64,000 bases of DNA from Haloarcula marismortui ATCC 43049. Its GTDB lineage: Archaea; Halobacteriota; Halobacteria; Halobacteriales; Haloarculaceae. The position numbers and the translations under genes are program-made. The stretch is from NCBI RefSeq assembly GCF_000011085.1, contig NC_006396.1, positions 1,240,001 to 1,304,000 on the forward strand, read 5' to 3'. Below the pieces are notes generated by a model that was not told where the DNA came from, did no database searches, and was given only the letters and a program-made list of their open reading frames with translations. Positions 10,803 to 64,000 of the stretch are shown one piece after another (position 1 is the stretch's first letter; each line of letters begins with the position of its first letter).

Positions 10803-13442
10803 TTAGTTGTCGCGTCGGACGGCGAGGAGCGCAGCAGCGACGAGCGCGATGAGCGCGATGGCTGCCGTGAAGCCGGGACCGGACGCTTCCGTGGTCTCAG
10901 CTTCGTCGGTTCCGGAGTCCATGGTGGTGGTCTCCTCAGTCTGCTCCTCGGTTTCCGGCGGTTCGGTTTCGGTTTCCGTCGGCTCTTCCTCGGAGGTGAC
11001 GGTCACGTTCGCACTGTCCGTGACAGGGCCGTCGCCCGAGGTGTACGGGTCGTCAGCACCCGGGAAGTCGTACGCTTCGTTGCCGTTGGTGTCGAGGTGC
11101 GGCATCGCGACCGCGGTGAAGTCCTCGTCCATCGGCTCGTCGAGCGTGATCGTGATGTCCTCGTGGCTGCCTTCCTCGAGGTATTCAGAGTTCCCGACGA
11201 CATCACCGGATGCGTTACCGGCGTGGATTGCGATGAAGCCACCGGCGGACAACTGTGCGTTGTCGACGACGACTTCGCTCCCGTCGGATTCCTGGTCACT
11301 GATGCTCACGGTTGCCGTCGCGCCTTCGACGATCGTGCCGTCGATGTCGTCACCGACGTCACTGCCGTCGACACGCGTCTGTGCCGTGAAGTTCGTTCCA
11401 GGGCTCCGCTCGCTGAGGTCAGCCGTTGCGGTGAACGTCCCGTTCTCCGTGACGGCCGTCTCCGGCTGGAGCAGGAACGGACTGCTGCTCGACTGGCTGC
11501 GGAGTCGGACGGTCACTTCGCTGCTCGGTGCGACGTTCGTCGTCCCGAAGAACTGCTGACCAGGACCAGCCTGAACAGAGATGTCGTCGTCGTTGTTCAG
11601 CGTCGCATCCGCGTCGACGAACTGAACACTGTCGTTGACGACTTCGCTGTCATCGTCGTCGTCGACGAGGTCACTGGTCGAGTCGTAGACAGTGAAGTTT
11701 GCCGCGTACTCGTCTTCGTCCTCGAGATTGAGTTCGTCGTTATCTGCGAGGTCAGCTCCGTCGATGGCGACGAAGTGCGTGTCGTTGGCCTCGTCGTAGA
11801 TGACCTTGTAGTCGCTAATCTGGTCGATGTCAAAGCCGGAGCCATCGGAGTTAGCGCCAGGGTCACTATCCTCGAGCTCGTGCTGGAACGCAGCACCAGG
11901 ATTGTTGTCGCCATCGGCAGCCTCATCGCCGGATTTGGCACCGTAGTCGCTCGTGTCGATGTCACCGCTACCGTCGGTGAACACACCTTCGAGACCGGAG
12001 GCCTCGACTTGGATGATGATGTCGTCGTTGACATCGTTGATTGCCGCTTCATCGGTCTGCGTGATGTTCCCGGCCTCGATCAGGTCGTAGACCGGTGCGG
12101 TTTCATCATCCTCGAGGTCGCTGATCTCGTCGTTGTACGTGTCGCTCGGAGCGCGCCACAATTGGACGGTCTCGGTGGTCCGCTCTCCGAGGGAGAGCGT
12201 TCCGACGTCGTCCTCGTCTTCGATTTCCACGGTTGAATTGTCAGGGATTCCAACGTGGCCTTCGACGGTCAGCATATCGTAGTCCGTCGCCTCAAGGATA
12301 TCGGCGCCGGCAGTGCCTTCTTCGTTAAAGTTGCCGAGGGTCCGCTCGTTGACGTTATCGATGGTGGTATCGTCGTCACCAGCGACAAGGACCTCATCGG
12401 CATCGCCGGAGCCAGCCTGGTAGCTGTTGAACTTGACGTAGACTTGGCCGTCCTCGTCGTCGTCAGTCACTTCGGCGATGGCGTAGTAGTTATCATCATC
12501 CTTGTCACCGACCTGCACGGTCGCTTCGTCGGTGTTGTCGAGCTGGATGGTAATGTTCGCCACGTCACCGCGTTCTTCGCTGACGACGCCATCTTCGAAG
12601 GCTGCTTCGTCGTCACCGGTGTCGGCGACCTCGATACTGTCCGAGTCCGAGGCGTCGGAGTCGGTCACGTTGGTTTCGATCGTGTAGTTACCTTCGTTGA
12701 TGTCCGTGAAGTTCAGCGTGTATTCGGCCTCTGCGTTGCCGATAATCTGAATCTTCTCGGTGTCGTCGAAGAACTCGTCTGCGTTGTTGACATTCTCAAG
12801 TTTGTCGCCCTGGGTACTGTCGGTGATAACCGTCACACCGTCAGGCAGGCTTTCACCGTCGCCAAGGTTGTTGACGAAGATATCGGCGAGTTCGTCACGG
12901 TCGAGGTTATCGGACGAGACGTTGACCGAGTACCCGTTCCGGACGTCGGACTCAATCTCGAACTCGACGTCGGCCGAGTCACCGGTGGTGCCGACCTCAC
13001 TATCGTCGAAGTCGGCGGTGAGGTCCTGCAGGACGACCTCGAATGTCTCAGATTCTTTAAGACCGTTTCCGGAGCTTACATCATTTTCACTGCGGTCGCT
13101 AAGATCGACGACTTGTCCGCTTGAAGAGCGCTGGATGACGAAGTCACCTTCGCTCAGGCGGTCATCGAGGTCGAACTCGATTTCACCGTTGTCGCCGGAG
13201 TTGACCGTGCGGCGAAGCGAGCCGACTCGGTCGTTATCGCCGCTGTCGTCAACGGTCCGGACTTCATAGTCTGCGTTGTTACCTGCCACGTCAAGCGTTA
13301 CCTCTTGGCCGCTGTAGAACGTCCCAGCGTCCAGATTAGCCGCAGCAGCCCCTCCGGAGAGCGCGACGGTCCCGGCGAATACCGAGAAGACCATCAGCGC
13401 AGTCAGGAAGAGACTACGTATTTTTTCGTTTGTATCTGTCAT
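10803..13442 (-). CDS. csg: S-layer (cell surface) glycoprotein with PGF-CTERM
   Basis: This 879-residue, extremely acidic protein would form the hexagonal S-layer that serves as the cell wall. It starts with the haloarchaeal surface-glycoprotein signal peptide (TNEKIRSLFLTALMVFSVF, cleaved near residue 35). Long Asp/Asn-rich beta domains with many N-X-S/T glycosylation sequons follow. A Thr/Glu/Pro-rich stalk typical of O-glycosylated membrane-proximal regions precedes the sorting tail at the C-terminus (GPGF, a hydrophobic helix, then RRDN). The tail is the substrate for the neighbouring archaeosortase. The start is the ATG at 13442; an upstream in-frame start would precede the signal peptide by 23 residues. 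Confidence 0.93.
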   Translation of the reverse strand: MTDTNEKIRSLFLTALMVFSVFAGTVALSGGAAAANLDAGTFYSGQEVTLDVAGNNADYEVRTVDDSGDNDRVGSLRRTVNSGDNGEIEFDLDDRLSEGDFVIQRSSSGQVVDLSDRSENDVSSGNGLKESETFEVVLQDLTADFDDSEVGTTGDSADVEFEIESDVRNGYSVNVSSDNLDRDELADIFVNNLGDGESLPDGVTVITDSTQGDKLENVNNADEFFDDTEKIQIIGNAEAEYTLNFTDINEGNYTIETNVTDSDASDSDSIEVADTGDDEAAFEDGVVSEERGDVANITIQLDNTDEATVQVGDKDDDNYYAIAEVTDDDEDGQVYVKFNSYQAGSGDADEVLVAGDDDTTIDNVNERTLGNFNEEGTAGADILEATDYDMLTVEGHVGIPDNSTVEIEDEDDVGTLSLGERTTETVQLWRAPSDTYNDEISDLEDDETAPVYDLIEAGNITQTDEAAINDVNDDIIIQVEASGLEGVFTDGSGDIDTSDYGAKSGDEAADGDNNPGAAFQHELEDSDPGANSDGSGFDIDQISDYKVIYDEANDTHFVAIDGADLADNDELNLEDEDEYAANFTVYDSTSDLVDDDDDSEVVNDSVQFVDADATLNNDDDISVQAGPGQQFFGTTNVAPSSEVTVRLRSQSSSSPFLLQPETAVTENGTFTATADLSERSPGTNFTAQTRVDGSDVGDDIDGTIVEGATATVSISDQESDGSEVVVDNAQLSAGGFIAIHAGNASGDVVGNSEYLEEGSHEDITITLDEPMDEDFTAVAMPHLDTNGNEAYDFPGADDPYTSGDGPVTDSANVTVTSEEEPTETETEPPETEEQTEETTTMDSGTDEAETTEASGPGFTAAIALIALVAAALLAVRRDN

Positions 13443-13872
13443 AGTTTGTTGATTGCTATCGGGCGACCCCAGCAGTTTTCCACCTGGTCGGAACGCGGTC
13501 ACCGCGACCACGCATAGACCGAACCGGCGTACTCACTTCTGGCGTCATGGGTAGGGGTACAGTCTAAACGACAGGTGTCTGTTGTAAATGTTTTGTGGTA
13601 AGAAAATCCAACTGTCATGAATGGCCAGGGAACGAAGGCGCTGTCAGTGGCGATTAGATGTGGTTTAAGAATCTTGTAGGTGTATAACAAGATCAGCATT
13701 CGGGCGTTTGACGACCCAGATCTACGTATCGGAGATGGTATCGCTGGCCTGAGACGATAGGGCTTCACGAATCCTCACTGCTCGCTCAGGAACGCCTCCG
13801 CAGACGAATCTCCTTCTGACAGCTACCGCGCGAGAATAGATTAGAACAGACGGGTAGTACCGACCAGTGCCG
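13443..13872. other. long upstream region of the S-layer gene
   Basis: This gene-free stretch of about 430 bases separates csg from the VOC gene. It is AT-richer than its surroundings, especially 13570-13690. On the minus strand, GTTTAGA (13563-13569) could be a TATA box giving a leader of roughly 95 bases; other S-layer genes have long leaders too. A small minus-strand open frame here (13499-13768) is Cys/His/Tyr-rich and unlike haloarchaeal proteins, so I do not call it a gene. Confidence 0.45.
13563..13569 (-). promoter_or_regulatory. possible csg promoter TATA box
   Basis: GTTTAGA on the minus strand would place the start of transcription near 13539, about 97 bases before the csg ATG. 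The match is weak and other AT-rich candidates exist further upstream. Confidence 0.3.
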
Positions 13873-19836: not shown

Positions 19837-22800
19837 TTAACTACCGATTGTAATCGTATCGGAGTCAATCGAGATGGGTGAGTCGTTCGTGGTTGCGCCA
19901 CTCTCGTCGACTTCCTTCAGGTAGATTTCTCCCGTCGCAGTATCGTCAATTGACCCGCTGGCCGTGTCGTTGTACACTGTGACCTCGTACGTGTAGTATC
20001 CGGGGTCGAGGTCGGTGTCGTAGCCAGCCCACGCCGGGTACTTGTCGACATCTCGCAGGTCGCCGCTACCGACTGTGACATTTGTAGAGCCTGTGAACAC
20101 GGCCGACCCGTCGCTCTTGTTCGTAATAGTGAGGTTCACTTCACGCTCGCTGCCGACCGTACCATTATTAAACACTTCGACGGTCATCCGCTGTGCACCG
20201 CCACGGCGTTCGATGAGTGTTGAAGTGTCGTATTTTTCTGCGCCGATATTGATTCCCTGCGTGTCGTTCACCACGACATTTGACCGGCCGACGAAGAACG
20301 ACTGCTTTGCTGACGTCCCGTTCCGCGTCTGCACGTAGTACGTGTAGTTGCCGCGGTCGGTCGGCATGCTGAGGTTTACTTGCTCTGTCTCCCCGTTTGT
20401 GAGCCCCGAGGTTGTCGTAGAGTCAGCCTCTGTGAACGTCGAACTCGCGTCGTCGGTGTTCTTTGTGTAGAGCGCAACTTCGGCAATTCCGTCCTCATCG
20501 CCGACATTTGTGATGTTAATCGTAGCGTTGGCAGACCCATCACTGTCGATCGCACCCGAGGCTCTGACCGAATCGACCTGCATGAACTGCTCGTCCAGTT
20601 CGCCGACGTAGATATTTCCGCCCCACCGCTTGCGTTCGTCAGACAGGGAGATATTGTACAGATACGACTGTTCCGTCGGCTTGCTACCGGTCCCGAAGAC
20701 GAAGGTGAACTGTTTTGTCTCGTTTGGCTCAATTTCTTTTGTCTCCGTACCGGCTGCGCTCCCGTCAAAGGTACTTGTGAGCGTCGCGTTACCGGACCTG
20801 CCACCCACGTTCTTGACGGTCGCCGTCACGTGTGCATTCGTCTCGTCAACACGAGCAGGAGCGTCAACGTCGATAACCCTGAACGCTGGCTTTGAGAGAG
20901 ACTCCTCGATAGAGTTCACTCTGAACAGTGCCATTGCGTCGTTGTAGTCCGGGTCATCACTGCTGTATGCGTTTTCAGGGCTTGCATCCCTCTCTGAGAG
21001 TTCATAAAGAAAAACCAGTTCACCGTCAGCAAGAGAGAGAGTTGCGTTGTCGCTGCCTGTATTGTTGAGTCGCTCTTCGCCGAGCATATCCTCAAGCCTG
21101 CGCTGTGCACTGCTTGCCTGCCCGTATCCAGGTGTTTTATCACCACTACGCAAAATGTCTACGTTCTGGTTATTCTCAGGGTTATCAACTGAAATACGAA
21201 CCTCGTCATGGTCCACGCATCGTTCTGTATCGTACTCATTTCCGTCTATCTCAAACGTCACATCAGTCGATGTGTACTCATCACACCAATAGGACGTGGC
21301 GAATAACGAGAAGGTCGTATTCTTTTCGAAGGTTCTTGTGTACTCATATGGATGATCATCACCGGTAACAAGCCGCTCTTCTGCATACGGGCCGTTCACA
21401 TCACCGTCCTCGAAGTCGTTGCCTACATCGCGCCATAACGGGATTTCGTACTCGGACTGATTCCGGACCTCCAGAGACATCTCTACACGAGTATGAGAAA
21501 TAGTATCAACAGTATTGCTTTCCAGTTCAGCCCCTTTGAGCACTATTGAGCCGTTTATTCTCCTGTTAGTTGTTACTTCTGACCCATCGCGTTTAATTAC
21601 TGGATTCAATTGAACATTCAACATCCGCCAAGCGGTCTGGTTCTCGGTCATAAAGTTCAGGCGATAGAGCCCCTCTTCAGATGGAACGGTAAACGTCTGC
21701 GTGACCGTCTCATCTTTACCCGGGTCAAGCTGCACCTCAGATGATTTGTCAGCACCCCAGTCTCTGCTAATGTGAAGCATCTGGGTATCCGTCGTTCCAC
21801 CGGTGTTGCTAACAGTGAAGCTAACCGTCGTCTTGTTCTCCGGTCTGACTGGATTATTGACGCTGACACTGGTGACATCAAACACTGGTGGGGCCGATGA
21901 GCCAACAGTGAACGTCCCGTTGACGGCGTCATTCGGTGTCTCTACGAGATAGGTATAATTGCTGTACGAAGGCGCAGTGAGTGAGCCACTGGTGAGGGTT
22001 ATTGTCTCTTCCTCTGCCCCGTTCCTGGTTCCATTGAGCGTGAAGTCCCTGCTTTTTGAGTCTATTTCAGCCCCCGACTCGTCCTTGATATGTATCGTGA
22101 CGGAGCCGGTGCTGCGAATGTCCCCGGTGTTTTTGATTGTCGCCCCAATAGTTGCCGTCTCACCACTCTCTACCCCGCCGGGGGGTGAAACTGACGTAAC
22201 TTCGAAGACACCGGAATCGCCAACAATGAAATAGCTCCCGTCATCCTTGGGCTGTGAGTATGTATCATCCTCTGTCTCGACCTCCAGATCGTATGTGCCA
22301 TTCTCGTTGGTCGGCATCGACGGGCCGAAGTCGACGGTCCGGCTCTGTCCCGGATCGACTATTAGGTTCCGTGTCGCGTTCACAGAACCGTTCACCAGAA
22401 ACAGGACCTCTTGATCCGCGGTCATTTCCCCGTTGTTCGTGACCGTGACTGTCGCCGACGGGACCTGATTCAGCCGCGCCGTCGCTGGCATCGAACTGCC
22501 TGTGATATCCAACGACGGCGTACCGGGAACAGTCGTATACACGATTCTCTCAAAGGCAGTATCGTGGTCTGATTCGACGGTGAAGTTGTGTGGTTTCGCG
22601 ACTGCGATGTCGACCGTGCCACTCACAGTGATAGATTCCCCGCCGCCGAGCGTGACCGTCTCTGTCGCCTCGCTCGGCGCCCCCGAACGATTGTGTTTCA
22701 ATGTGATGGTCTGAGTGTCTTTCAGCCCGCCAGTGTTGGTGACCATCGCTGAGACGGTTGCCTGGCCGGGATTCGAAGGGTCTGACTGCACGGTAATGTT

Positions 22801-23618
22801 ATCGACTGCGAACTTCGAATCGGACACGTCACCGAGCGCAAAGCGTACATGAATCGTTTCACCCGGCTCAGCCGAGGCCGGTGTCACAGTGACGTACTGG
22901 TCATCGTAGGTGCTCCGTGCCCAATCCGCCCACGCGCGGGCATAGCTACTGTTTTTGATCGTCAGTGTCGCGTTGGCGACCTGCGACGGGGGACACTCAT
23001 AACTGGGTGACGAAAATGAGCCGGTTCGAGCGTCCTCGTAGGACACATCAGTGAACAGGGCCATCTGTAGTGCCGCCTCGTGTGGCCGCTCGGCCGTCGC
23101 GTTCGACCGAATTGCAACCGAATTTCCTCCGATCTGCTGTCCGGAGATATTTGCGAATGAGACCGACAGCGCCCCTTGGTCGTAGTTCACTGCTGGGGGC
23201 GACGACATCGTCGCGCCCGACTCGGTCATCCGCCACACACCCCCTCCCTGATAGCCGACCTGTTGGCCGTTCTCTTGATACCGAATCGTCTGTAACGAAC
23301 GGTTCCCGGTCGAACAGGCCGAGCGGCCGTTCAACGTCAGATTGTATGTCGCATCGTCTGTAACAGTGATATCAGATCGAACCCGGTCTGGTATCTCGAC
23401 TGACTCATTGGTATCTGACCGCTGGAAGCTCTGATCAACCGACAGCAGCACCTCCTCAGCGAGCTCAACATTCGCGTCGTCGTTGATATCTCCGATCGTC
23501 TGTTGCCCACTTGAACGATCAGTATCGCGCCGATGATGACAGCACTTGCCAACAACACCACACCCAGAACGTGTGATACACCCCGGTCTCCAGCCCCCCA
23601 GCTGCCCCACTCGAACAT
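19837..23618 (-). CDS. large exported surface protein with CARDB-like repeats, apparent frameshift near the N-terminus
   Basis: About 1,260 residues. The first 37 codons from the ATG at 23618 encode a pilin-like N-terminus (GDRGVSHVLGVVLLASAVIIG). The rest lies in another frame, joining at the GGG of 23506-23508, where one missing base would restore the reading ...VQVG-QQTIGD. After the joint comes a module shared with the two proteins at 27544-31182 (YQGGGVWR, then SPPA). At least four CARDB/Ig-like units follow, each with FEVTSV- or FRVIDV-type openings and NTG motifs, and many N-glycosylation sequons. No C-terminal anchor is seen. A minus-strand TATA (ACTTATGT, near 23646) fits the ATG at 23618. 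Real inactivation, phase variation or a sequencing error are all possible. Confidence 0.7.
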
Positions 23619-23923
23619 ATTCAATTACATACCAACTATTGCACATAAGTGTACTGTTTCACACTATCTCGACAAAACAGCGACATAAGTTGGCGACGTT
23701 GAGCTATAGGTACTCAGTTATGAAACACTATTACACTCAGTGGCCGTAGCTGATATCCCGCATTCTATTTCGTATGTGAGGCGCTGGTGACCTCATAATA
23801 AAAACTGAATCCGGAATTATATAACCAAGCCAGAACTGACACAGTACGGAATGTCCACTCCAGACGGGAAAACCAGAGCTATTAGTTGGATCCACGTATC
23901 CATCTACGACGGTAAAATTAGGA
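23619..23923. other. gene-free region between the surface protein and tRNA-Ala
   Basis: It holds the promoter of the minus-strand surface protein near 23643-23650 and an isolated, palindromic TTATATAA box at 23816-23823. That box is followed 27 bases later by an ATG (23850) opening a 38-codon frame that runs antisense through the tRNA. I do not accept that frame as a gene. The stretch is AT-richer than average. Confidence 0.4.
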
Positions 23924-23995
23924 TGGACTCGCCGGGATTTGAACCCGGGGCCTCTCCCATGCCAAGGGAGTGATCTACCCCTGATCTACGAGCCC
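23924..23995 (-). tRNA. tRNA-Ala (anticodon GGC)
   Basis: On the minus strand the acceptor GGGCTCG pairs with CGAGTCC (one G-U pair), with discriminator A. The anticodon stem CTCCC/GGGAG encloses TTGGCAT with anticodon GGC, and the T-loop is TTCAAAT. There is no intron and no encoded CCA. A minus-strand TATA box GTTTAAG lies at 24028-24034. Confidence 0.95.
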
Positions 23996-24027
23996 TTGCG
24001 TGCATTGCATGCTTTCCGATGGGATTG

Positions 24028-24034
24028 CTTAAAC
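24028..24034 (-). promoter_or_regulatory. TATA box of tRNA-Ala
   Basis: GTTTAAG on the minus strand lies about 35 bases before the mature 5' end, leaving room for a short precursor leader. Confidence 0.5.
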
Positions 24035-24151
24035 CCATCGAAGCACAGGGACATAGAAAACCGGACCCACGATCTTGTTTAGACCAGCATTGCATCGACC
24101 TTGCAGGGTGTGTAGAAATCCGGTAATTGGAGTTACAGTACGGCCACAATG

Positions 24152-24159
24152 GTTATAAC
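24152..24159 (+). promoter_or_regulatory. TATA box of the pilin-like operon
   Basis: GTTATAAC predicts transcription from about 24182, some 24 bases before the first gene of the five-gene operon. Confidence 0.45.
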
Positions 24160-24205
24160 GCCTGATACCATCCCTCCAGTAATCTCAGTTTAGTGAATCA
24201 GGCTT

Positions 24206-24811
24206 ATGAACCGTAGGAGAAATGAGACGCAGTCTACCAACCGGCGTGCCAGCCAGTCACTCTGGATCGAAGAGCACCGGCGTGGGCAGACGACACTGGA
24301 CTTCGCCATCGGCATGAGCCTATTTCTAAGCGTCCTGATATTCATCTTCTTGTTCATTCCGGGGCTATTATCGCCGTTTTCTGCGGGGGTGCAGGAAGAG
24401 ACGGTCACGACCGACAGAGTGGCCGATGGACTCACAATGGGGATGCTTGGGTCGCCACAACAGCCGTACGTTCTGGAAGAACACTGTACACAGGAGTTCT
24501 TCGCTGGGAACGCACCACCGTCAGGATGTGGCTACAACTCCGGTGGGAGTGCGGAGGAACGGGTCGGGCTCAACCCGGCTCGGGAGAACGTGAACGTCAC
24601 AATCCGGGGGAACGCGACGGCAACAGCAGCCGCCGATGAAACGCTCTGCTGGGATGGAGGAAGCGAGGAACTCGTTGAAGCCGGGACCGGCTGTGGGACG
24701 ATACTCACGACCGGTGGGAATCCACCGACAAACAACGACGCGTCGGTCACTGCGTTGCGGGTGGTCTCGCTGAACGGGCAGGATGTCACAGTTCGCGTGG
24801 TGATGTGGTAG
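24206..24811 (+). CDS. pilin-like/TadE-like exported protein (DUF7287-type)
   Basis: This 201-residue protein has a basic N-terminus ending RRGQTTLDFAIGMSLFLSVLIF, a class III (type IV pilin-like) signal that prepilin peptidase would cut before the hydrophobic helix. The exterior part of about 140 residues has four cysteines (two in CTQEFF and GCGYN, two in the second half) and N-glycosylation sites. I believe the family is DUF7287, a haloarchaeal pseudopilin-like group. It opens a tightly packed operon of five genes of similar architecture; the next ATG follows the stop by one base. Confidence 0.78.
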   Translation: MNRRRNETQSTNRRASQSLWIEEHRRGQTTLDFAIGMSLFLSVLIFIFLFIPGLLSPFSAGVQEETVTTDRVADGLTMGMLGSPQQPYVLEEHCTQEFFAGNAPPSGCGYNSGGSAEERVGLNPARENVNVTIRGNATATAAADETLCWDGGSEELVEAGTGCGTILTTGGNPPTNNDASVTALRVVSLNGQDVTVRVVMW

Positions 24812-24812
24812 T

Positions 24813-25400
24813 ATGCGTGCGCAGGCGCACACGCTTGAAGCGATTGTCAGCGGAATGCTGTTACTGGCAAGTCTGGTGTTCGCGCTACAGATGACAGCAG
24901 TGACGCCGCTGTCCGCGAGCACGTCAAGTCAACACATCGAGAACCAGCAGCAGGCAATCGGCCACGGGGTCCTCGCCTCCGCGGTGGCAGAGGGCGCACT
25001 GAAACCGGCTGTGCTCTACTGGGACAACAGCACGGCGCAGTTCCACAACACAGCCGGTGGTCGGGAGTACTACACGAACGGGCCCCCGGACAACCGGTTC
25101 GGGGAGTTGCTAGAGCGTGCGTTCGACCAGCGGGGAATCGCCTACAACGTCTATCTCAGGTTCCAGAACACGCAGGGAAGAACTGTGACGACCCGCTACG
25201 TCTACAGCGGTGAACCAAGCGACAACGCAGTGCGTGCCAGCCACACAATTACGCTCATGGACGACGACCACTTGCGAGACGCGGACGGGACTCGCAACAG
25301 CACGCGGCTCGGTGACCCAGCGACCGATTATACGGTTTCGGACACCGGAAAGAACGTCTACAACACGGTCAGCGTGGAGGTGGTCGCGTGGCGCATCTGA
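24813..25400 (+). CDS. pilin-like exported protein (DUF7288-type)
   Basis: This 195-residue protein has a short charged N-terminus (MRAQAHTLE) followed at once by a hydrophobic helix (IVSGMLLLASLVFALQM) and a soluble exterior domain. The A-HTLE junction looks like a pilin processing site. It matches the haloarchaeal family I remember as DUF7288. Its end overlaps the start of the third gene by 13 bases. It is presumably a minor pilin or assembly component exported through a type IV pilus-like machine, but no ATPase or platform protein is encoded here. Confidence 0.76.
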   Translation: MRAQAHTLEAIVSGMLLLASLVFALQMTAVTPLSASTSSQHIENQQQAIGHGVLASAVAEGALKPAVLYWDNSTAQFHNTAGGREYYTNGPPDNRFGELLERAFDQRGIAYNVYLRFQNTQGRTVTTRYVYSGEPSDNAVRASHTITLMDDDHLRDADGTRNSTRLGDPATDYTVSDTGKNVYNTVSVEVVAWRI

Positions 25401-26368
25401 ACGACGACGAACGCGGACAAATAATCCTTATCGCCGCGTTAGCGCTGGCGGTGACGTTCATCGGTCTTGCGCTGGTCGTCAACTCCGCGATTTACACGCA
25501 GAACCTCGCGAGCCGGGGTGAGGTTGCTGGGAGCAACGACGCGCTGGAGATGCGAGCGATGGTGGAGGCAAACATCGGGCAGGGTATTGTCGCGGCCAAC
25601 AGGTACAACTACTCGACCCAGTCGGCGCTCGAAACTAGTGTACGCGAGAGCGTACGGACCACAAGTACGCAGACGGAGCGGCAGCGGGTCACGAGCGGGA
25701 CACTGGTAAACGTCACACTCGCCGGCTCGCCGACCTACGGCACGCGAATTGCTCAGACCAACACGTCACTGTTCGAATCCGGCGAGGCGACGCCGAGCGC
25801 CAATTGGATGGTCAGAGAACGGGTCACGCGCCCGGGCGACGGAACGAACGCGACCAGACGGTTCGTCATCAACGCGACGCAGCTCCCCAGTTCAGGAAGC
25901 GAGTTCGTCGTCACAACGAACGGCACCGGTGGTAACCCGAAATGGATGATGCGCATCTGGGGCGACGTCGGCCCCAGCGGGACGGTCAACGTGGAAGTCG
26001 ACACACCGAGCGGCACACAGACGTGTGCTGTCCCTATCGAGGAACCGTACGCCCATATCGACGTGACCGGCGGCACGGTGCAGGGCGAGCCGTGTCTCGC
26101 GCTTCAGGGCGGGAGCTTCGACGGGCGATTCGCCCATGGCGTCGGCGACGAGTACAACATCACCTACGAGTCGGGCGACCAGATCAAGGGGAACTACTCG
26201 ATGGTCGTCCGCGATAGTACGCCAGCAAACACGCTCGATACAGCGCCCGCGTCGCCGTTCAGCACGACCGCGGTCTACAACGCGACCGTCCGCTATCGCT
26301 ACGACACGTCGAACTTACGGTACGAGGCAAAGATACGGGTGGCCCCGGGTGAGCCAGATGCGTCGTAA
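25388..26368 (+). CDS. pilin-like exported protein (DUF7261-type)
   Basis: This 326-residue protein starts with GTG inside the end of the preceding gene. The N-terminus DERGQIILIAALALAVTFIGLALVVNSAI is a classic pilin-like signal with a conserved Gly-Gln cleavage region. The large exterior domain has many N-X-T sites and two Cys around residues 220-240. I believe the family is DUF7261. Overlaps on both sides indicate translational coupling within the operon. It is the largest of the five and could be the tip or adhesin subunit, which is speculation. Confidence 0.76.
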   Translation: MAHLNDDERGQIILIAALALAVTFIGLALVVNSAIYTQNLASRGEVAGSNDALEMRAMVEANIGQGIVAANRYNYSTQSALETSVRESVRTTSTQTERQRVTSGTLVNVTLAGSPTYGTRIAQTNTSLFESGEATPSANWMVRERVTRPGDGTNATRRFVINATQLPSSGSEFVVTTNGTGGNPKWMMRIWGDVGPSGTVNVEVDTPSGTQTCAVPIEEPYAHIDVTGGTVQGEPCLALQGGSFDGRFAHGVGDEYNITYESGDQIKGNYSMVVRDSTPANTLDTAPASPFSTTAVYNATVRYRYDTSNLRYEAKIRVAPGEPDAS

Positions 26369-26801
26369 CCGCGCCGTCTCGACGACGCTAAGCTACACGC
26401 TGAGTCTGGCCATCGCCTCTATTTTGGTATCTGGCCTCCTCATTGCTGGCGGCAATTTCGTCGAAAGCCGGCAGGAGCAGGTCATCAGGGACGAACTCGA
26501 AGTCATCGGACAGCAAGTGGCCTCTGACATCGCTCGTGTTGATCGGCTGGTGGTCGCTGCCGACGACGACCCGACTGTGAATCTAGATCACACGTTCCCA
26601 GCGCGGGTGAGTGGGACCGGCTACCGAGTCTCGATTGACCCCGCTGCCGATGAACTCACGCTCGAATCGACCGCTCCGGAGGTGTCGGTGACTGTGTCGC
26701 TCACAACCCGGACAGCCCTAGGGGACTCCACCGCCGGCGGCGGTGTGATAACTGTGTTCTACGACGAATCAAGCGATCAACTGGAGGTCCGAGATGGCTG
26801 A
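26358..26801 (+). CDS. pilin-like exported protein (DUF7266-type)
   Basis: This 147-residue protein has an N-terminus RRNRAVSTTLSYTLSLAIASILVSG, typical of haloarchaeal archaellin/pilin-like proteins (R-A-V-S before the helix). The exterior domain is beta-rich and lacks Cys. I believe the family is DUF7266. It overlaps the gene before it by 11 bases and the gene after it by 8 bases. The upstream extension of the frame is a shadow of the preceding gene. Confidence 0.76.
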   Translation: MRRNRAVSTTLSYTLSLAIASILVSGLLIAGGNFVESRQEQVIRDELEVIGQQVASDIARVDRLVVAADDDPTVNLDHTFPARVSGTGYRVSIDPAADELTLESTAPEVSVTVSLTTRTALGDSTAGGGVITVFYDESSDQLEVRDG

Positions 26802-27537
26802 CCGCGCGGTAAGTGAGGTGCTGAGCTTTGCTCTAGTGTTCAGTCTCATTGTGGCGTCGATAATACTCGTCTCAGTAAGCGGCCTGGGGGCGTTACAGAA
26901 CGCTCGGGACGCGGAGCAGATGGAGAACGCTGAGCGGGCATTCGATGTGCTCTCGGACAACATCGCGGACCTCCACAAACAGGGGGCACCGAGTCGTGCG
27001 ACCGAAGTCAGCCTCGGGGAGGCATCGCTCAGGACGGGCGAAAACACGACGATATCGGTACACGTCCACGACGGAACTGCGCCCAAAGACGTCGGGACCT
27101 GGGAGATACGACCGATTATCTACGCCGGCAATCAGGAGCGCGAGCTCGTATACGAGGCTGGGGCAGTGTATCGGACGAACCGGGACGGTGGCGTGCAAAA
27201 ACGGACGCCGCCGATACTCGTCTCAGATGACCGTGTTCTCATCACGGTGGTCGGCACGACCGCCAGTGACCAGCAGAGCCTGGGCGGGTCGACGGTGCTT
27301 GTCCGGACAAACCACCGGAGCAGCAACGTCTCGTTCGCCGATACCGACGGCAACATCGAACACGTCAACATCAGTGTCGACTCGGCCCCACAGCGTGAGG
27401 CACTCTGGCAGTCCTACTTCGAGAGCGAAGGGTTCACTTGCGCGGCCAACGGCTGGTGTAACTTCACGTCGTCCTCCGGCGATATCCAGCGGACGTACGT
27501 GGTCTATCACGACATCGCAGTCGAGATTGACCAGTGA
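26794..27537 (+). CDS. pilin-like exported protein (DUF7289-type), last gene of operon
   Basis: This 247-residue protein has the N-terminus DRAVSEVLSFALVFSLIVASIILVSV, a pilin-like class III signal. It continues with a helical DAEQMENAERAFDVLSDNIADLHKQGAPSRATEVSL segment, characteristic of a haloarchaeal family I remember as DUF7289, and then an exterior beta domain with two Cys late in the sequence. It ends seven bases before the convergent DUF7305-like gene. The five genes together look like a complete set of minor pilins. Confidence 0.76.
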   Translation: MADRAVSEVLSFALVFSLIVASIILVSVSGLGALQNARDAEQMENAERAFDVLSDNIADLHKQGAPSRATEVSLGEASLRTGENTTISVHVHDGTAPKDVGTWEIRPIIYAGNQERELVYEAGAVYRTNRDGGVQKRTPPILVSDDRVLITVVGTTASDQQSLGGSTVLVRTNHRSSNVSFADTDGNIEHVNISVDSAPQREALWQSYFESEGFTCAANGWCNFTSSSGDIQRTYVVYHDIAVEIDQ

Positions 27538-27543
27538 CCAGCC

Positions 27544-29268
27544 CTACCCGCTGGTCACGTTGATCCGGTTCTTCGAGACGTGGAGGTACGTCAGCCGGAT
27601 GATGTTCGTGTTTTTCGGGACGGCTCGCTCGTTTCTGAGCGCTCGGTCATAATGGACCAGCCCGCCGTTGTCTACCGTAACTGACCCGGCGACGAGGCCG
27701 CCGTACAGCTCCGCCTTTTTGATCGAGACACTGCTTGCACCGACGCCGCCAGCGGGTGCGTAAATCACGCCCTCAAACTGCGGCGTATCAGTGTCTCCCT
27801 CGATGAAGGCGTCAAAGTCCGACCGGCCGTACATCCAGAACTGCTTGGAGTTGTTGGCGTTATCGATGTCGACGTCCCCGGTGCGATAGATGTGGAAGTG
27901 GTGGCCGCTGGGGGACATTGCTTCGCCTTTGACGTAGAGGCGGACCTTTCCGCCACCGTTGACCTTGATCCGCCCGTTGTTCTCGATGTAGACGTAGTCC
28001 CGGACGGCGATAGTCACGTCGTCACCACCTGTGTTAATCGTCAGCGTCTCGCCGCTCAGCGTCAGGTCTTCGAGGTAGTATGTGCCCGCGTCCAGCGTCT
28101 GGTCACCAGCGGCAAGCTGGTTCCCCGAAATGCTGCCGGTCGCGCCGTTGTCATTGGTATCGCTTGCGTTGGCGACTCGCCGGTTCACCAAGCCATCGAT
28201 AGCGCCGGCTCCCTCGACACCCGAAATCTGTCTGACATTGCCGTTAACAGTGCCCTTGATGTGCTTCGTGGTCGAGTATTCCACGTCACGGGTGACGACA
28301 CCGCTTCCTTTGACCTCGACCCGGTCTCCGGACCGAACAGCGCCATCCACCTCGCTGTTCCCTTTCACGTACACGTCACCGGCTGTGGTGATTGTTCCGA
28401 ACGACCCCCGTGAGGTCGAATAATCGCCGACAGACGAATTGTAGCTATCCGTTCGAGCGGGGTCGGTACCACTGCCGGAGAGCGTAATCTGTCCGCCAGC
28501 GGACGTAGCCGCGACGGCGCTCGTCACTTCTCGCGGCCCCGTCGGCACGACAAGCGTCGTGGTCACGCTGTCGTTTTCGTGGTCGTAGTACGCATCGCCA
28601 TCGGTCCGCTCTTCGAAGTAGCGCCCCCAGGACCGGTAGTACTCGCTCTGGACGGTGATGTTGACCGTCCCCGTATCCAGCGGATTGATGTTCCCAGCCG
28701 CCTGGTCGGGATACACCTGCGTCGTGCCGTCCTTCGAGATGCTCGCCCGTGAGCCAAGCGACCGGTCGCCACGGACGGTGATGAGCGGGAGCGTCAGCGT
28801 CGCGTCGCGGTAGTAGAACTCCGGCGGTGAAACCATGACACTGCCACTGTCGGAACGCCGCCACACCCCGCCGCCCTGATAGGCGACTTTCTGGTTCCCG
28901 TTTTCGTAGACGACCGCGCCGAGTCGCTCATCCATCAATGTGGTTGTCGTCGAGGGCGAGGCCGAGTGGTTGGTGATGTTGACGGTCATCCGACCCGCGG
29001 TGTCGTCGATTCGGTACGTCGATTTGTCCGTCCCGACGAGTGATACCTGCTGGCTGTCGGCGTTCCCAAGCGCCACCAGCGCCGCCTGAGAGTCCAGCTG
29101 GGTCATCCCAGTCTCCGCCCGGGAGACATCGAGCCCGGCCTCAGTATCGACCAGCGCCGTCGCTCCCAGGCTGACAACGACACCGGACCCGACGATGACG
29201 AGACTGAGGACCAGTAGGAGGCCAAGCGGGGCCGATTGTGCGCGTTGCTGACCCCTGGGAACGTTCAT
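27544..29268 (-). CDS. exported surface protein with pilin-like N-terminus and polymer-forming-type C-terminal domain
   Basis: About 574 residues. The N-terminus has RAQSAPLGLLLVLSLVIVGSG, a pilin-like signal and helix. Residues ~60-260 form a module shared with its paralogue at 29416 and with the 19837 gene (VAYQGGGVWRR, then VMVSPPEFYYRD, and a YYRSWGRYFEERT segment). The second half is repetitive and beta-rich, with GVIYAPAGG and ELYGG motifs and HYDRALRNER near the end, like haloarchaeal DUF7305/polymer-forming surface proteins. A minus-strand TATA (CTTATC at 29293-29298) is 27 bases before the ATG at 29268, excluding upstream starts. It converges with the pilin-like operon. Confidence 0.75.
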   Translation of the reverse strand: MNVPRGQQRAQSAPLGLLLVLSLVIVGSGVVVSLGATALVDTEAGLDVSRAETGMTQLDSQAALVALGNADSQQVSLVGTDKSTYRIDDTAGRMTVNITNHSASPSTTTTLMDERLGAVVYENGNQKVAYQGGGVWRRSDSGSVMVSPPEFYYRDATLTLPLITVRGDRSLGSRASISKDGTTQVYPDQAAGNINPLDTGTVNITVQSEYYRSWGRYFEERTDGDAYYDHENDSVTTTLVVPTGPREVTSAVAATSAGGQITLSGSGTDPARTDSYNSSVGDYSTSRGSFGTITTAGDVYVKGNSEVDGAVRSGDRVEVKGSGVVTRDVEYSTTKHIKGTVNGNVRQISGVEGAGAIDGLVNRRVANASDTNDNGATGSISGNQLAAGDQTLDAGTYYLEDLTLSGETLTINTGGDDVTIAVRDYVYIENNGRIKVNGGGKVRLYVKGEAMSPSGHHFHIYRTGDVDIDNANNSKQFWMYGRSDFDAFIEGDTDTPQFEGVIYAPAGGVGASSVSIKKAELYGGLVAGSVTVDNGGLVHYDRALRNERAVPKNTNIIRLTYLHVSKNRINVTSG

Positions 29269-29292
29269 TATCCGACAGTGGTTATCATGGTT

Positions 29293-29298
29293 GATAAG
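29293..29298 (-). promoter_or_regulatory. TATA box of the 27544-29268 gene
   Basis: CTTATC on the minus strand is centred 27 bases before the ATG. It decides the start at 29268 against the longer open frame. Confidence 0.45.
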
Positions 29299-29415
29299 AT
29301 TGCTGGCCGGTCGCGGAACAGTCGCTACTAGCGGCGGTCTATGACAGACGCAGCGAAAACCGACCGACGCCAAGCGCTACTACTTCTGATAGCAATGGCG
29401 TGGGCGTGTCAGCTG

Positions 29416-31182
29416 TCAGTTGGACGTGATATTGACGTCGTTCGTCGAGATGTGGAGGTAGGTGATCGCAACCACGCTTGTGTCTTTGGGAATTGTGCGC
29501 TCCTGTTTGAGCGCCCGGTCAAAGTGGACTCTGCCACCTTTTTCGAGTTCGACTTGGCTGGTGACCGCACCGCCGTAGAGTTCGCTCTTCCAGATCTCGA
29601 ACGTACTCGTACCGGTCTTTCCCCCCGGCGCATAGATGACGCCGGTGACTCTAGACTTATCTGATCCCTTCTTTTCCATCCGGGCTTGGAGGGTGTCTTT
29701 GCCGTAGATCCACACCTGTGTTGACCGCTCACTGACGGCACCGGTTGTCCTGATCTCGCTCGCCCGTGTGAAGAAGTGATAGCCGTCAGCACTCCCGCCC
29801 GACGCAGGCGATGTGCCGTTTATGTATATTTTCACCTGGTTCGGGCCGGACACCGTGATGTCGTTCCTGGTGTTGAGGCTCACGTAATTCTCGACGCCAA
29901 TGATTACGTTTCCACCAGTCGTGTCGAACTCGACGTCGCTGCTCAAGTCGATCCTGTCGACGTGATAGCTGCCCGCAGACAGTGTCGTCGTTCCCTCTGT
30001 ACCGTCGATAACGCCGTCGTCGGCTATCGTTCCCCCGTTGTCGTTCGACGACGATAGGTCGTCGACCTGTGTGTTGACATGGGAGTTGATATTGGTGGTA
30101 TCTCCGAACGAGCTGATCTGCTCGTCGGAACAGGACCCGGAACACGCTCCGTGTTTATCGTCGAACGCGTCCGCCCATTCTACCCGGTCACCGTTGAACG
30201 TCATCGAGTTACTACTGAATTCGACGCGACCACCCGAGGTGATGTTTCCATTCAGTTCCGCACTCCCGGTGACGATGACATCACCTGCCGTCGTGAGATT
30301 GCCGCCATCACCGGCCTCGGAGGCGTCATATCCGTCCCCGTCTGCCGAAGTATAGCTGTCGGTAAAGGCATCGTTCCCGCTCAGTTTGATCGAACCGGAG
30401 TCGCTCGTCGCGGCGACGGCGTTCTGGACCTTTCGCGGCCCCGCAGGGACCTTGAGAATGATCGAAACACGATTGCTATCGGGATGGTACGTCACGTCAC
30501 CGTCCGTTCGCTCCTCGAAGTATCCTCCCCACGCGCGGTAGTACTCGCTCTGGACGGTAACGTTGACTTTCCCGTTTTCCAGCGGGTTCGTGAAGTTCTC
30601 GTTGCGCGTGCTGTTCGGAAAGTACGACCTCGTCCGGTTGTGAGAGATCGACGCGCCGTCTCTGATTGCCCCGGACCCGCTCACTGTCACGAGGGGAAGC
30701 GTTAGCGTCGCGTCCCGGTAGTGGAACTCGGGTGGAGAAACCATCACCGACGTTCCGTCGCCGTTGGCCCGCCAGACGCCGCCCCCCTGATACGCGAGTC
30801 GCGTCTCGTCACTGCCGTGATAGGCCACCTCGCCCATCGATTCATTGAACACAGTCATCCGGTTCCCGGACGTTGTATTCTGATAGGAGACGTTCATCCA
30901 CCCGGCGTCCTCGTCGATACGATAGGTGCTCGAACTGCTCGCGGGAAGAGAGACCTGCTGCACGTCCGTCTGTCCCAGCGCTACGAGCGCGGTTTTGGAA
31001 TTGAGTTCCGTCAGCGACTTCTCAGTTCGTTCCACGTCAAGTTGCGTTTGCGTGCTCGTAATTGCGTCGGCACCCAGTGCGACCACCGCCGTCGTCGATA
31101 CAATCATTACCGCAAAAACCAGCGCTAACCCGAGCGGAGCACTTTGCCCACGACTTCCGAGTCCCCGCTCAGCGCTACCCAT
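29416..31182 (-). CDS. paralogous exported surface protein (pilin-like N-terminus, polymer-forming-type C-terminus)
   Basis: About 588 residues and clearly a paralogue of the gene at 27544. It has the same SRGQSAPLGLALVFAVMIV start and the same YQGGGVWRANG and VMVSPPEFHYRD module. The YYRAWGGYFEERTDGD segment and the ending with GVIYAPGG, ELYGG and HFDRALKQER are also shared. It differs by two Cys pairs in the middle (CSGSCSD region). A minus-strand TATA (ATTTTAAGT, 31209-31217) supports the ATG at 31182; an in-frame GTG at 31191 would lie upstream of the expected transcript start. The tandem pair suggests a local duplication with divergence. Confidence 0.75.
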   Translation of the reverse strand: MGSAERGLGSRGQSAPLGLALVFAVMIVSTTAVVALGADAITSTQTQLDVERTEKSLTELNSKTALVALGQTDVQQVSLPASSSSTYRIDEDAGWMNVSYQNTTSGNRMTVFNESMGEVAYHGSDETRLAYQGGGVWRANGDGTSVMVSPPEFHYRDATLTLPLVTVSGSGAIRDGASISHNRTRSYFPNSTRNENFTNPLENGKVNVTVQSEYYRAWGGYFEERTDGDVTYHPDSNRVSIILKVPAGPRKVQNAVAATSDSGSIKLSGNDAFTDSYTSADGDGYDASEAGDGGNLTTAGDVIVTGSAELNGNITSGGRVEFSSNSMTFNGDRVEWADAFDDKHGACSGSCSDEQISSFGDTTNINSHVNTQVDDLSSSNDNGGTIADDGVIDGTEGTTTLSAGSYHVDRIDLSSDVEFDTTGGNVIIGVENYVSLNTRNDITVSGPNQVKIYINGTSPASGGSADGYHFFTRASEIRTTGAVSERSTQVWIYGKDTLQARMEKKGSDKSRVTGVIYAPGGKTGTSTFEIWKSELYGGAVTSQVELEKGGRVHFDRALKQERTIPKDTSVVAITYLHISTNDVNITSN

Positions 31183-61982: not shown

Positions 61983-62096
61983 ATCTCCTCGTTGCAGGTG
62001 GTGGCGCAAAACAGTTCGTACCCGTGCGACACGTTTACCATCGTGGGCGCTCGTCGTCCCTCGGTTACCCGTAGTTCCTCATTGTTTTCCGGGCAC

Positions 62097-62108
62097 AAAA
62101 GATATATT
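62097..62108 (+). promoter_or_regulatory. TATA box of the 62131 gene
   Basis: AAAAGATATATT is centred 27-28 bases before the ATG at 62131, which suggests a leaderless mRNA. Confidence 0.5.
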
Positions 62109-62130
62109 CGTCCTTCTCGTAGGGTCAGAT

Positions 62131-62400
62131 ATGAACAAACACTTCGAAGACGCACGATACTACCTGAAGCGCGCCGGCAAAACCGCAACCAAGGGCGTCA
62201 AAGAGGAACTCGAACCGGTCGAGGAACGGTTCCGAGAACTCACTGGGAAGGAAGTAGAGCCGGAACCCAGCCGACTGGAGGCCGTCAAGGCCGACCTGAA
62301 GAAACTGCAGGGAAAAGCAGAGGGGGAAGCCGAGGAAGCGATCGCTGACGCCCGCGAAAAGATCAGCGAGTACCGCGGTACGGAAGAGCAGGAAGCGTAG
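62131..62400 (+). CDS. small charged helical protein (DUF7553-like)
   Basis: This 89-residue protein is extremely rich in Glu, Lys, Arg and Ala and probably one long amphipathic helical bundle or coiled coil. I believe it belongs to a haloarchaeal family annotated as DUF7553. It has no Cys and no motif of catalytic type. It stands alone with its own TATA box between the MBL gene (divergent) and tRNA-Val. The in-frame stretch upstream is antisense to the MBL gene. Confidence 0.75.
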   Translation: MNKHFEDARYYLKRAGKTATKGVKEELEPVEERFRELTGKEVEPEPSRLEAVKADLKKLQGKAEGEAEEAIADAREKISEYRGTEEQEA

Positions 62401-62448
62401 TCGGAAAGCAATTCTTAAGGGATGCGCTCGAATAGAGTTGAGTGCACT

Positions 62449-62523
62449 GGGTTGGTGATCTAGTTCGGTTATGATACCTCCTTCACACGGAGGAAGTCGG
62501 CGGTTCGAATCCGCCCCAACCCA
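62449..62523 (+). tRNA. tRNA-Val (anticodon CAC)
   Basis: The acceptor GGGTTGG pairs with CCAACCC and is followed by A. The anticodon stem CCTCC/GGAGG encloses TTCACAC with anticodon CAC, and the T-loop is TTCGAAT. Length is 75 bases and no intron or CCA is encoded. A TATA-like TCTTAAG lies about 35 bases upstream. The sequence right after it is AT-rich accessory DNA. Confidence 0.95.
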
Positions 62524-62540
62524 CTCAGTCGCTTAACGCT

Positions 62541-62628
62541 CCTGAGTGACAGCTTCCCGCTGTCTCAGGCCTTGATTCAGTAATTCCCGTAGGGGAACCC
62601 GTCTTCAGGCAGGGGAGAAGAAGTCAAG
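62541..62628 (+). mobile_element. possible solo right end of an IS200/IS605-family (TnpB-type) element
   Basis: A hairpin CCTGA..GACAGC / GCTGTC-TCAGG (62541-62569, two-base bulge) comes first. The stretch GGGGAACCCGTCTTCAGGC then runs into AGGGGAGAAGAAGTCAAG at 62592-62628. The second part folds as CCC-GTC-TTCA-GGC-a-GGG. It resembles the 3' end of haloarchaeal TnpB-type elements, which also forms the guide-RNA scaffold. No transposase or tnpB coding sequence is present. The comparison is from memory of such ends. Confidence 0.45.
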
Positions 62629-62714
62629 CGAGTTGTTGGCTCCTTCTCACCGTACCGACGTGTGGCGATTGTACCAAAAGGAAATAGTCGTGTAAGGCTA
62701 GTAAGTGTTACGGC

Positions 62715-62755
62715 TTAACCAACAACACAGCTCGAAGCAGGCAGATGTTGGTTAA
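62715..62755. repeat. perfect 10-bp inverted repeat
   Basis: TTAACCAACA (62715-62724) and TGTTGGTTAA (62746-62755) are exact reverse complements with a 21-base spacer. They could be a transposon end, an operator pair or a hairpin. Confidence 0.55.
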
Positions 62756-62956
62756 TCTCTAACCTTGTGGAAAGCGCATCGCTCGTGGGGTGATTCGAGA
62801 CAAAAGAACAGCCTTCGTGAAAGACGTGCCAGAACCATTATTTTTATACAGAATAAGGTAGGGTGAAATAATATATCGGGCTACCGCCGATAAAAGATAT
62901 GCCCTGAAATTGCGCAGGCATTATGATTTATAACAGTTCCTAATGTATGTGTGGAT

Positions 62957-63829
62957 TCATTTCAACGAGTGTAGGTCATATGAGAAATTGTCTCCGTCTA
63001 ATTCATCAATCCAGTCGGTAATGTAATCCTGTACCATTGATAAATACACCTGACAAATTGATGCGGCTGGAACGATGCGGGCGAAGGGAGAATCCCTCAT
63101 TGATTTCGATTTATCTGCAATCTCGATTCGTTCATTTTCAGGGACAAATTCATTGATGACCGAAATTGGAACATCATCGAAAAAGTAGGTGCGATTTATT
63201 TTCGAATCTTCGGCAGAATCTCCAAAGTCATACGCTAATGAATGGCCCAATGGTGGTTTCAAAGAACCACGGGCCGGACTTCCCAAGTGAACACTCTGAT
63301 GACGTGAGTTAATCAGCATTTCGTGCAGGTCAATTTTCCCTTGGGTATCTGCCCAATCACTCCACTCCGTTTCAGACATATTCCGCAACATATCGTCAAT
63401 TGAATAAGCTGCATTGAGGAATCCACCCAAATAATATCTGAAACCCTCTGATTCTCCCGTCTTCATTTTACACAAAAAGAAATCCATCTCGCTAAACTTA
63501 TGTACGACAGCTTTTGGGTCAACTTCATTAGATTCTGGTGGCCCAGATACGATGATTTGGAATCTTGAGATTCCCGGTGGTTGTGGATTATCTCTCGTCG
63601 GACTCAAATTGGGGCCATCTGGGTCTCTACCCAAAGTTAAGGAATGGTTCCAAGTATTATCGCGGTCGCCCTGAAATCCATCTAACTCGTAAATATATTT
63701 TCCATCTTTGAGTACCTGTGTGGCCTCATTTTCAAATTTATTGTCATTATCAATATCCTCTTTAATTGTAATTTTGGCTAACATCCCTTTCGGAACCGTA
63801 GCGTCACAAATGAGGCCAATTTTGCTCAT
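62957..63829 (-). CDS. orphan accessory protein with HEPN-like R-x4-H motif
   Basis: This 290-residue protein is unlike its neighbours: less acidic, rich in Asn, Ile, Lys and Ser, in AT-rich DNA. The first ~105 residues look like a beta domain with several Asp/Asn clusters (DIDNDNKFENE). The helical second part has FRYYLGGFLNAAYSIDDML, then R176-x4-H181 (RHQSVH). The order of helix then R-x4-6-H is the HEPN RNase pattern of many toxin and defence proteins. I did not recognise the family, and a fortuitous motif is possible. It has no clear partner inside the window; a possible partner may lie beyond its right edge. Confidence 0.6.
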   Translation of the reverse strand: MSKIGLICDATVPKGMLAKITIKEDIDNDNKFENEATQVLKDGKYIYELDGFQGDRDNTWNHSLTLGRDPDGPNLSPTRDNPQPPGISRFQIIVSGPPESNEVDPKAVVHKFSEMDFFLCKMKTGESEGFRYYLGGFLNAAYSIDDMLRNMSETEWSDWADTQGKIDLHEMLINSRHQSVHLGSPARGSLKPPLGHSLAYDFGDSAEDSKINRTYFFDDVPISVINEFVPENERIEIADKSKSMRDSPFARIVPAASICQVYLSMVQDYITDWIDELDGDNFSYDLHSLK

Positions 63830-63912
63830 AAGCCAGAATGTTCACGTAAGTGAATAATCGTTTTCCTCGGGACTACCAGAAACATAACCAAATTAAATCA
63901 GACGAAAATCAT

Positions 63913-64000
63913 TTACTGCTTATTGAAACCGGTACGACGCTGTGCCTTCAGTTCGAGACGCTTCCGCTCTGCCGCATCGAGGGAGTCATCGGCTCGAAGT
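63913..64000 (-). CDS. C-terminal end of a protein running off the window
   Basis: A minus-strand frame open to the right edge ends with TAA at 63913-63915 and encodes 28 residues finishing LKAQRRTGFNKQ, with a charged AAERKRLEL helix before. Codon use is GC-rich at third positions, unlike the orphan gene, so it may belong to ordinary chromosomal sequence or another island gene. Too short to identify. Confidence 0.4.
   Translation of the reverse strand, partial: LRADDSLDAAERKRLELKAQRRTGFNKQ

Follow-up and report, generated by a model that had tools for sequence, protein, structure and literature searches.

In this work we analysed a window of DNA, 64,000 nucleotides of Haloarcula marismortui ATCC 43049 (contig NC_006396.1, positions 1,240,001 to 1,304,000), and in it a cluster of genes for pilin-like proteins at window positions 19837 to 31182. 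Five of these genes lie on the plus strand (cassette 2) and three large ones, called here A, B and C, on the minus strand. The region 24206-31182 is probably the second pilin cassette of a haloarchaeal type IV pilus of the PilB4 type, which would share its motor with another cassette, have B and C as modular tip-type pilins, and carry in C a head that has been exchanged between close relatives. The features are the following.

19837..23618, minus strand: gene A, a large pilin-like protein with DUF7289 and CARDB repeats, frameshifted (Pfam; DNA alignment with intact copies)
23924..23995, minus strand: tRNA-Ala(GGC), a conserved neighbour in Haloarculaceae and an integration site, outside the pilus system
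24206..24811, plus strand: DUF7287 pilin-like protein, first gene of cassette 2 (Pfam, E 4e-42; signal RRGQTTLDF...)
24813..25400, plus strand: DUF7288 pilin-like protein, the best-conserved member of the cassette (Pfam, E 2e-65; signal RAQAHTLEA...)
25388..26368, plus strand: DUF7261 pilin-like protein (Pfam, E 6e-13; signal RGQIILIAAL...)
26358..26801, plus strand: DUF7266 small pilin-like protein (Pfam, E 7e-26; signal NRAVSTTLSY...; in-frame ATG at 26358)
26794..27537, plus strand: DUF7289 protein, a predicted pilin with an N-terminal helix and an all-beta head (Pfam, E 9e-75; AlphaFold2 model)
27544..29265, minus strand: gene B, a predicted modular pilin with DUF7289 and a putative beta-solenoid head, DUF7305 (Pfam; the open frame reaches 29373)
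29416..31182, minus strand: gene C, a predicted modular pilin with DUF7289 and a DUF7305 head (Pfam; structure model)
29416..30694, minus strand: swapped block of gene C, its head (DNA identity 35-65% in three close Haloarcula species, against about 85-93% in the flanks)

The five plus-strand genes (24206-27537), which an earlier note on this DNA had described as tightly packed and pilin-like, are separated by +1, -13, about -11 and -8 nucleotides and each of them carries the motif of a prepilin. This motif, defined as an Arg-Gly/Ala junction and a Q/V-type residue followed by a 20-residue hydrophobic stretch, was looked for in all 264 open reading frames (ORFs) of at least 80 amino acids in the window. 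Seven ORFs have it and every one belongs to the cluster, which is therefore far beyond chance; the DUF7266 protein is the eighth, through an internal start, so that a class III (prepilin-like) signal is found on all eight subunits, that of gene A being in another frame. A search of NCBIfam gave chance matches only, and no paper naming the DUF families of the cluster was found in the literature library searched. The genome has a prepilin peptidase gene, and encodes PilA-type pilins elsewhere. Hydrophobic pilin-like N-termini by themselves cannot separate cleavage from anchoring, and the eight proteins might stay uncleaved in the membrane as anchored surface proteins, or belong to a pseudopilin-like export complex, and form no filament. 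We consider this quite improbable in view of the Arg-Gly/Ala junction, which all eight proteins conserve ahead of the hydrophobic stretch, of the long N-terminal helix and beta head in the structure models, and of the adjacency and co-occurrence with PilB and PilC described below. The preferred reading is that the prepilins of cassette 2 would be cleaved by the prepilin peptidase of the genome.

The three large minus-strand proteins share a module (YQGGGVWR/SPPE/YYxxW), as the earlier note had seen, and this module is Pfam DUF7289; what had been missed is that these proteins have pilin-like signals of their own and that they are akin to the product of the fifth operon gene. When the family of the latter was compared with that of B and C, the two profiles matched over residues 11-247 (probability 99.6%, E 4e-24). 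The shared module being DUF7289, the fifth operon gene and genes A, B and C form one family, in which DUF7289 is accompanied by CARDB in A and by DUF7305 in B and C (44% identity between the two). Leaderless-type promoters had also been proposed for each of the large genes: conserved blocks lie upstream of A, B, C and the operon in up to 10 Haloarcula genomes, and TATA-like stretches lie about 30 nucleotides before A, B and C, all of which fits such promoters and does not amount to proof.

Gene A had been described as a large protein with CARDB-like repeats; Pfam recovers the CARDB domain, and the part of the description that has to be corrected is the reading frame. The signal of gene A (DRGVSHVLGVVLLAS..., from the ATG at 23618) is out of frame with the 1269-amino-acid ORF of the body because the run at 23506-23508 lacks one G compared with relatives, which have four in the DNA alignment. 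The gene is intact in five of them (L052, L053, L158, L159 and L163), and the frameshift could be a sequencing error. Among close Haloarcula species the middle of the CARDB region (gene A, 19837-23487) is 41-63% identical and the ends are 75-91% identical, and the synonymous substitution rate (dS) is above 1 in gene A, compared with about 0.3-0.5 in neighbouring genes.

No T2SSE or T2SSF gene is present anywhere in the window, as the earlier note had observed, and the locus therefore has neither the ATPase nor the platform of a pilus machine. In the same genome, PilB (830 amino acids) and PilC (678 amino acids) are encoded at 1,113.5-1,118.1 kb of the contig, about 145 kb from cassette 2. Directly behind this pair (1,110-1,118 kb) lies cassette 1, made of the five identical families in identical order, with 25-36% identity to the genes of cassette 2. 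We infer that the 1.11-Mb PilB-PilC pair is the best motor candidate for cassette 2.

This assignment is best discussed in the light of gene order, which was compared across 80 named loci, and of counts of cassettes, PilB and DUF7305 made in 96 genomes of the family, including 8 of Haloarcula and 7 of the genus g12. The ancestral locus, still the rule in other haloarchaeal families, runs PilB-PilC-DUF7287-7288-7261-7266-7289; convergent large DUF7289 genes come next, and then ribosomal S15. Of the 381 genomes of the class, 356 have DUF7288. The five genes nearly always occur with the large DUF7289 proteins in the 80 loci, the opposite of the lack of co-occurrence that the earlier note had named as evidence against its idea, and DUF7305 is never found without DUF7288 in the 96 family genomes. 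Four loci (L065, from HArc-gm2; L069, from Halorientalis marina; L131 and L132) have everything in one row: PilC, cassette 1, gene A, tRNA-Ala, cassette 2, the large DUF7289 genes (B/C) and S15. Unit 1 therefore ends with gene A, which lies directly downstream of cassette 1 in these relatives, and unit 2 with B and C. In a tree of 55 cassettes, those of the cassette-1 type form one clade of 12 (100/100), while the window cassette falls in a clade with the remaining 43, among which are PilC-adjacent cassettes of Haloferax and other taxa, with 100/100 support against cassette 1; the orphan is therefore the orthologue of the canonical set. Cassette 2 is orphaned and cassette 1 stands beside PilB in all eight sampled Haloarcula genomes (the named loci closest to the window have 95-97% identity in DUF7288). 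The genus g11 has the reverse of this arrangement and several genera retain the tandem. These comparisons show a tandem duplication of the five-gene cassette behind a single PilB-PilC pair in Haloarculaceae; in Haloarcula the PilB-PilC genes and cassette 1 then became separated, leaving gene A and cassette 2 in the window region. The absence of a motor is a derived split in Haloarcula and some related genera. The prediction of a coherent pilin-type surface system without a motor of its own, probably using one encoded elsewhere, is supported; the idea of a separate, poorly described appendage is not, as this pilin set belongs to a type IV pilus already known from haloarchaea, and lies next to the PilB and PilC genes of that pilus in most other Halobacteria.

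Because the genome has other T2SSE/T2SSF pairs, at 0.41 Mb and 1.74 Mb, cassette 2 could be assembled by one of these, into a pilus distinct from that of cassette 1, all the more as a haloarchaeal motor need not be encoded together with the pilins that it serves (PMC4858521, PMC6491452). Several observations make this unlikely. In three near relatives (L057, L059 and L062), which fall with the window in a clade of seven rows (100/100), cassette 2 itself has a PilB gene on its upstream side, and this gene is orthologous to the 1.11-Mb PilB (1510-1604 bits) and not to the others. The 1.74-Mb motor has a different pilin set of its own: in this third pilus locus (L017, contig C8 about 1,734-1,741 kb), PilB-PilC is followed by DUF7289, DUF7263 and DUF7261 proteins. 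Lastly, the seven sampled genomes of genus g12 are devoid of DUF7288, of PilB of the 1.11-Mb type and of DUF7305 alike, and the co-occurrence of DUF7288 with PilB, a check that the earlier note had proposed, is significant (Fisher p 3e-7). With PilB copies counted at E 1e-150 or better, a single close PilB is found in 43 of the 48 family genomes that have at least two cassettes. We thus favour a mechanism in which the cleaved pilins of cassette 2 would be polymerised by the single PilB4-type motor at 1,113.5-1,118.1 kb, one motor serving two pilin sets.

A duplicated cassette cut off from its motor might also be a decaying remnant. Two genes are visibly damaged: gene A, which is frameshifted in the window assembly, and the DUF7289 gene of cassette 1 (L016:4481-5041, contig C8 about 1,110.4-1,111.0 kb), which is stopped early by an in-frame TAG, whereas seven relatives encode Gln or Arg there and read on for about 60 residues more. 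Both visible defects therefore fall in unit 1, whereas the seven genes at 24206-31182 are intact and kept across Haloarcula. Among Haloarcula species, the ratio of nonsynonymous to synonymous substitution rates (dN/dS) is 0.02-0.21 for cassette 2 and gene B, and likewise for gene C where the head is unswapped, with the lowest values for DUF7288 (0.02-0.04). These ratios led us to reject the decay of cassette 2, which we regard as highly improbable; the orphaned cassette is under strong purifying selection.

The AlphaFold2 models are in keeping with pilins. The DUF7289 protein of the operon is modelled as a 62-residue helix (2-63) and an all-beta head (mean predicted local distance difference test score, pLDDT, 94), and the product of gene C as a helix (18-71), a beta head and then a beta-solenoid (mean pLDDT 89). 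The long N-terminal helix, the stem of a pilin, is found in both, which suggests that DUF7289 follows the pilin plan. The DUF7289 head alone has no fold relative at E below 0.01 among solved structures, and no sequence relative was found there for the DUF7288, DUF7289 or B/C profiles. The solenoid may be inserted between the last two strands of the pilin head or appended to it: a conserved C-terminal strand follows the solenoid in the model of gene C, yet the profile alignment finishes the pilin domain before the solenoid. In Foldseek, ice-binding solenoid proteins occupy the first ten ranks for gene C (6eio at the top, with E 1.7e-3 and probability 0.99), and ComZ, a pilin of Thermus that has a beta-solenoid, comes next at rank 11 (E 0.13, probability 0.28). 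Among 50 homologues, 33 match DUF7305 and 17 match DUF7308, and the DUF7305 region of one homologue (L141) exceeds the cut-off for pAdhesive_15, the 'ice-binding-like adhesive domain' of Pfam, which is an independent sequence match. With moderate confidence, then, the DUF7305 heads of B and C are ice-binding-like beta-solenoids. The polymer-forming-like (bactofilin, PF04519) domain that had been seen in these two proteins is not retained: it scores 20.2 bits in B for a cut-off of 27.9 and has no match in C.

The head of gene C differs between close relatives in a way that its stem does not. Across nine Haloarcula relatives, loci common to both collections (e.g. L053 = L170, L054 = L161) being entered once, the stem (residues 14-75) is 97-100% identical and gene B is at least 85% identical throughout, whereas residues 256-563 of gene C are only 21-29% identical in L054, L159 and L164, and 60-75% identical in L052. 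At the DNA level, identity is about 90% before the block, only 35-65% within it (about 29344-30694) and again 83-91% in the stem. The odd heads of L054, L159 and L164 are 96-97% identical to each other, and their nearest relative (65%) is the head of the gene in the C position of Haloarcula pellucida. This is the replacement of a block within one gene, and we infer that the head was exchanged by recombination, as expected for a head facing varying ligands, partners or viruses. Gene A and the DUF7261 gene of cassette 1 show milder versions of this pattern.

These properties lead us to propose that B and C would be low-copy modular pilins whose ice-binding-like solenoids probably stand at the tip of the filament, for adhesion or recognition. 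A more detailed scheme, in which C would be a tip pilin like ComZ, constant in its stem and with a block-recombined solenoid head that confers a species-specific tip (for a surface, a mating partner, DNA or a virus), while two cassettes share a split-off motor, is tentative. AlphaFold2 beta-solenoids can be over-predicted. This and several other points weigh against our interpretation: no Foldseek match reaches E below 0.001 for either model, the fold match to ComZ is weak, and the tip location of B and C is drawn by analogy. As for the motor, its assignment relies on position and orthology in a genome that has further PilB/PilC pairs, the strict E-value used to count PilB leaves room for more distant motors, and cassette 1 keeps the place next to the motor, so that cassette 2 might use another one. 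Finally, the name PilB4 comes from the gene context and from the extra domains and layout of the protein, and Pfam calls the PilB extensions 'PilB3-like'.

The tRNA-Ala gene, around which the earlier note had centred the cluster, is better regarded as a conserved neighbour and integration site than as a functional centre. In L060 (4561-9208), an integrase gene begins at a 33-nucleotide exact copy of the 3' end of tRNA-Ala, the intact tRNA lying about 4.6 kb away, which indicates an integrated element between the end of gene A and cassette 2. Four Haloarcula loci (L051, L052, L055 and L056) have differing foreign-looking genes in this slot. We do not propose tRNA integration as the cause of the motor split, because the split in Haloarcula falls between cassette 1 and gene A. 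Elsewhere in the window, the proportion of G and C goes down to 0.47 at 62000-64000, beside tRNA-Val (62449-62524), which suggests another integrated element, and a low-GC region about 10 kb from the pilin cluster holds a gene (10803-13511, minus strand) for a large secreted protein, which has a signal peptide and is probably the S-layer glycoprotein.

If our interpretation is right, eight proteins of families or domains of unknown function become predicted parts of a pilus whose likely motor can be named. They would also be an example from nature in which two diverged pilin sets depend on a single type IV pilus motor, the opposite situation to the motor duplications described previously. The block-swapped head of gene C marks where on the filament recognition probably takes place, and makes what haloarchaeal type IV pili bind a directly testable question.

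The closest known system is the PilB4-PilC4 locus (euryarchaeal Clade 2; Makarova et al., 2016, PMC4858521; HVO_1160 in Haloferax volcanii), where the pilin set, in the same order in most Halobacteria, lies behind a PilC and a long PilB that is extended at both the N- and the C-terminus. Compared with this locus, the motor genes are not adjacent in the window and two cassettes exist; in addition, the large DUF7289 proteins carry CARDB or beta-solenoid modules, which the main text of PMC4858521 does not describe. DUF7289 fits by description the signature minor pilin arCOG02911 (duplication-prone, 250-550 amino acids, all-beta; PMC4858521). PilB4-PilC4 has been proposed to assemble a structure that contains two relatively large pilins (PMC4371748), its expression drops during viral infection of Haloferax gibbonsii (PMC12542753), and haloarchaeal motors can serve several or other pilin sets, for example in Haloferax (PMC6491452, PMC4858521). 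Bactofilins resemble gene B through its repetitive beta-helical sequence, which gives a weak match as in polymer-forming proteins, but this match is below the curated cut-off, the N-terminus is that of a secreted pilin, and the nearest folds are ice-binding solenoids. Gene C resembles ComZ, the competence-associated tip pilin of Thermus thermophilus, also a pilin domain with a large solenoid closest to ice-binding proteins, for which a tip location was argued (PMC6561018); no sequence relation to ComZ was found, however, and the pilin module of gene C is archaeal (DUF7289). Modular pilins are known from bacteria, and PilB of Streptococcus sanguinis is likewise a pilin to which a functional module has been attached, so that the filament displays it (PMC8179133). 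Those pilins were catalogued through a bacterial pilin domain, whereas here the stem is archaeal; what appears to be new, judging from the sequence comparisons, is a fixed stem with a head exchanged among close Haloarcula species.

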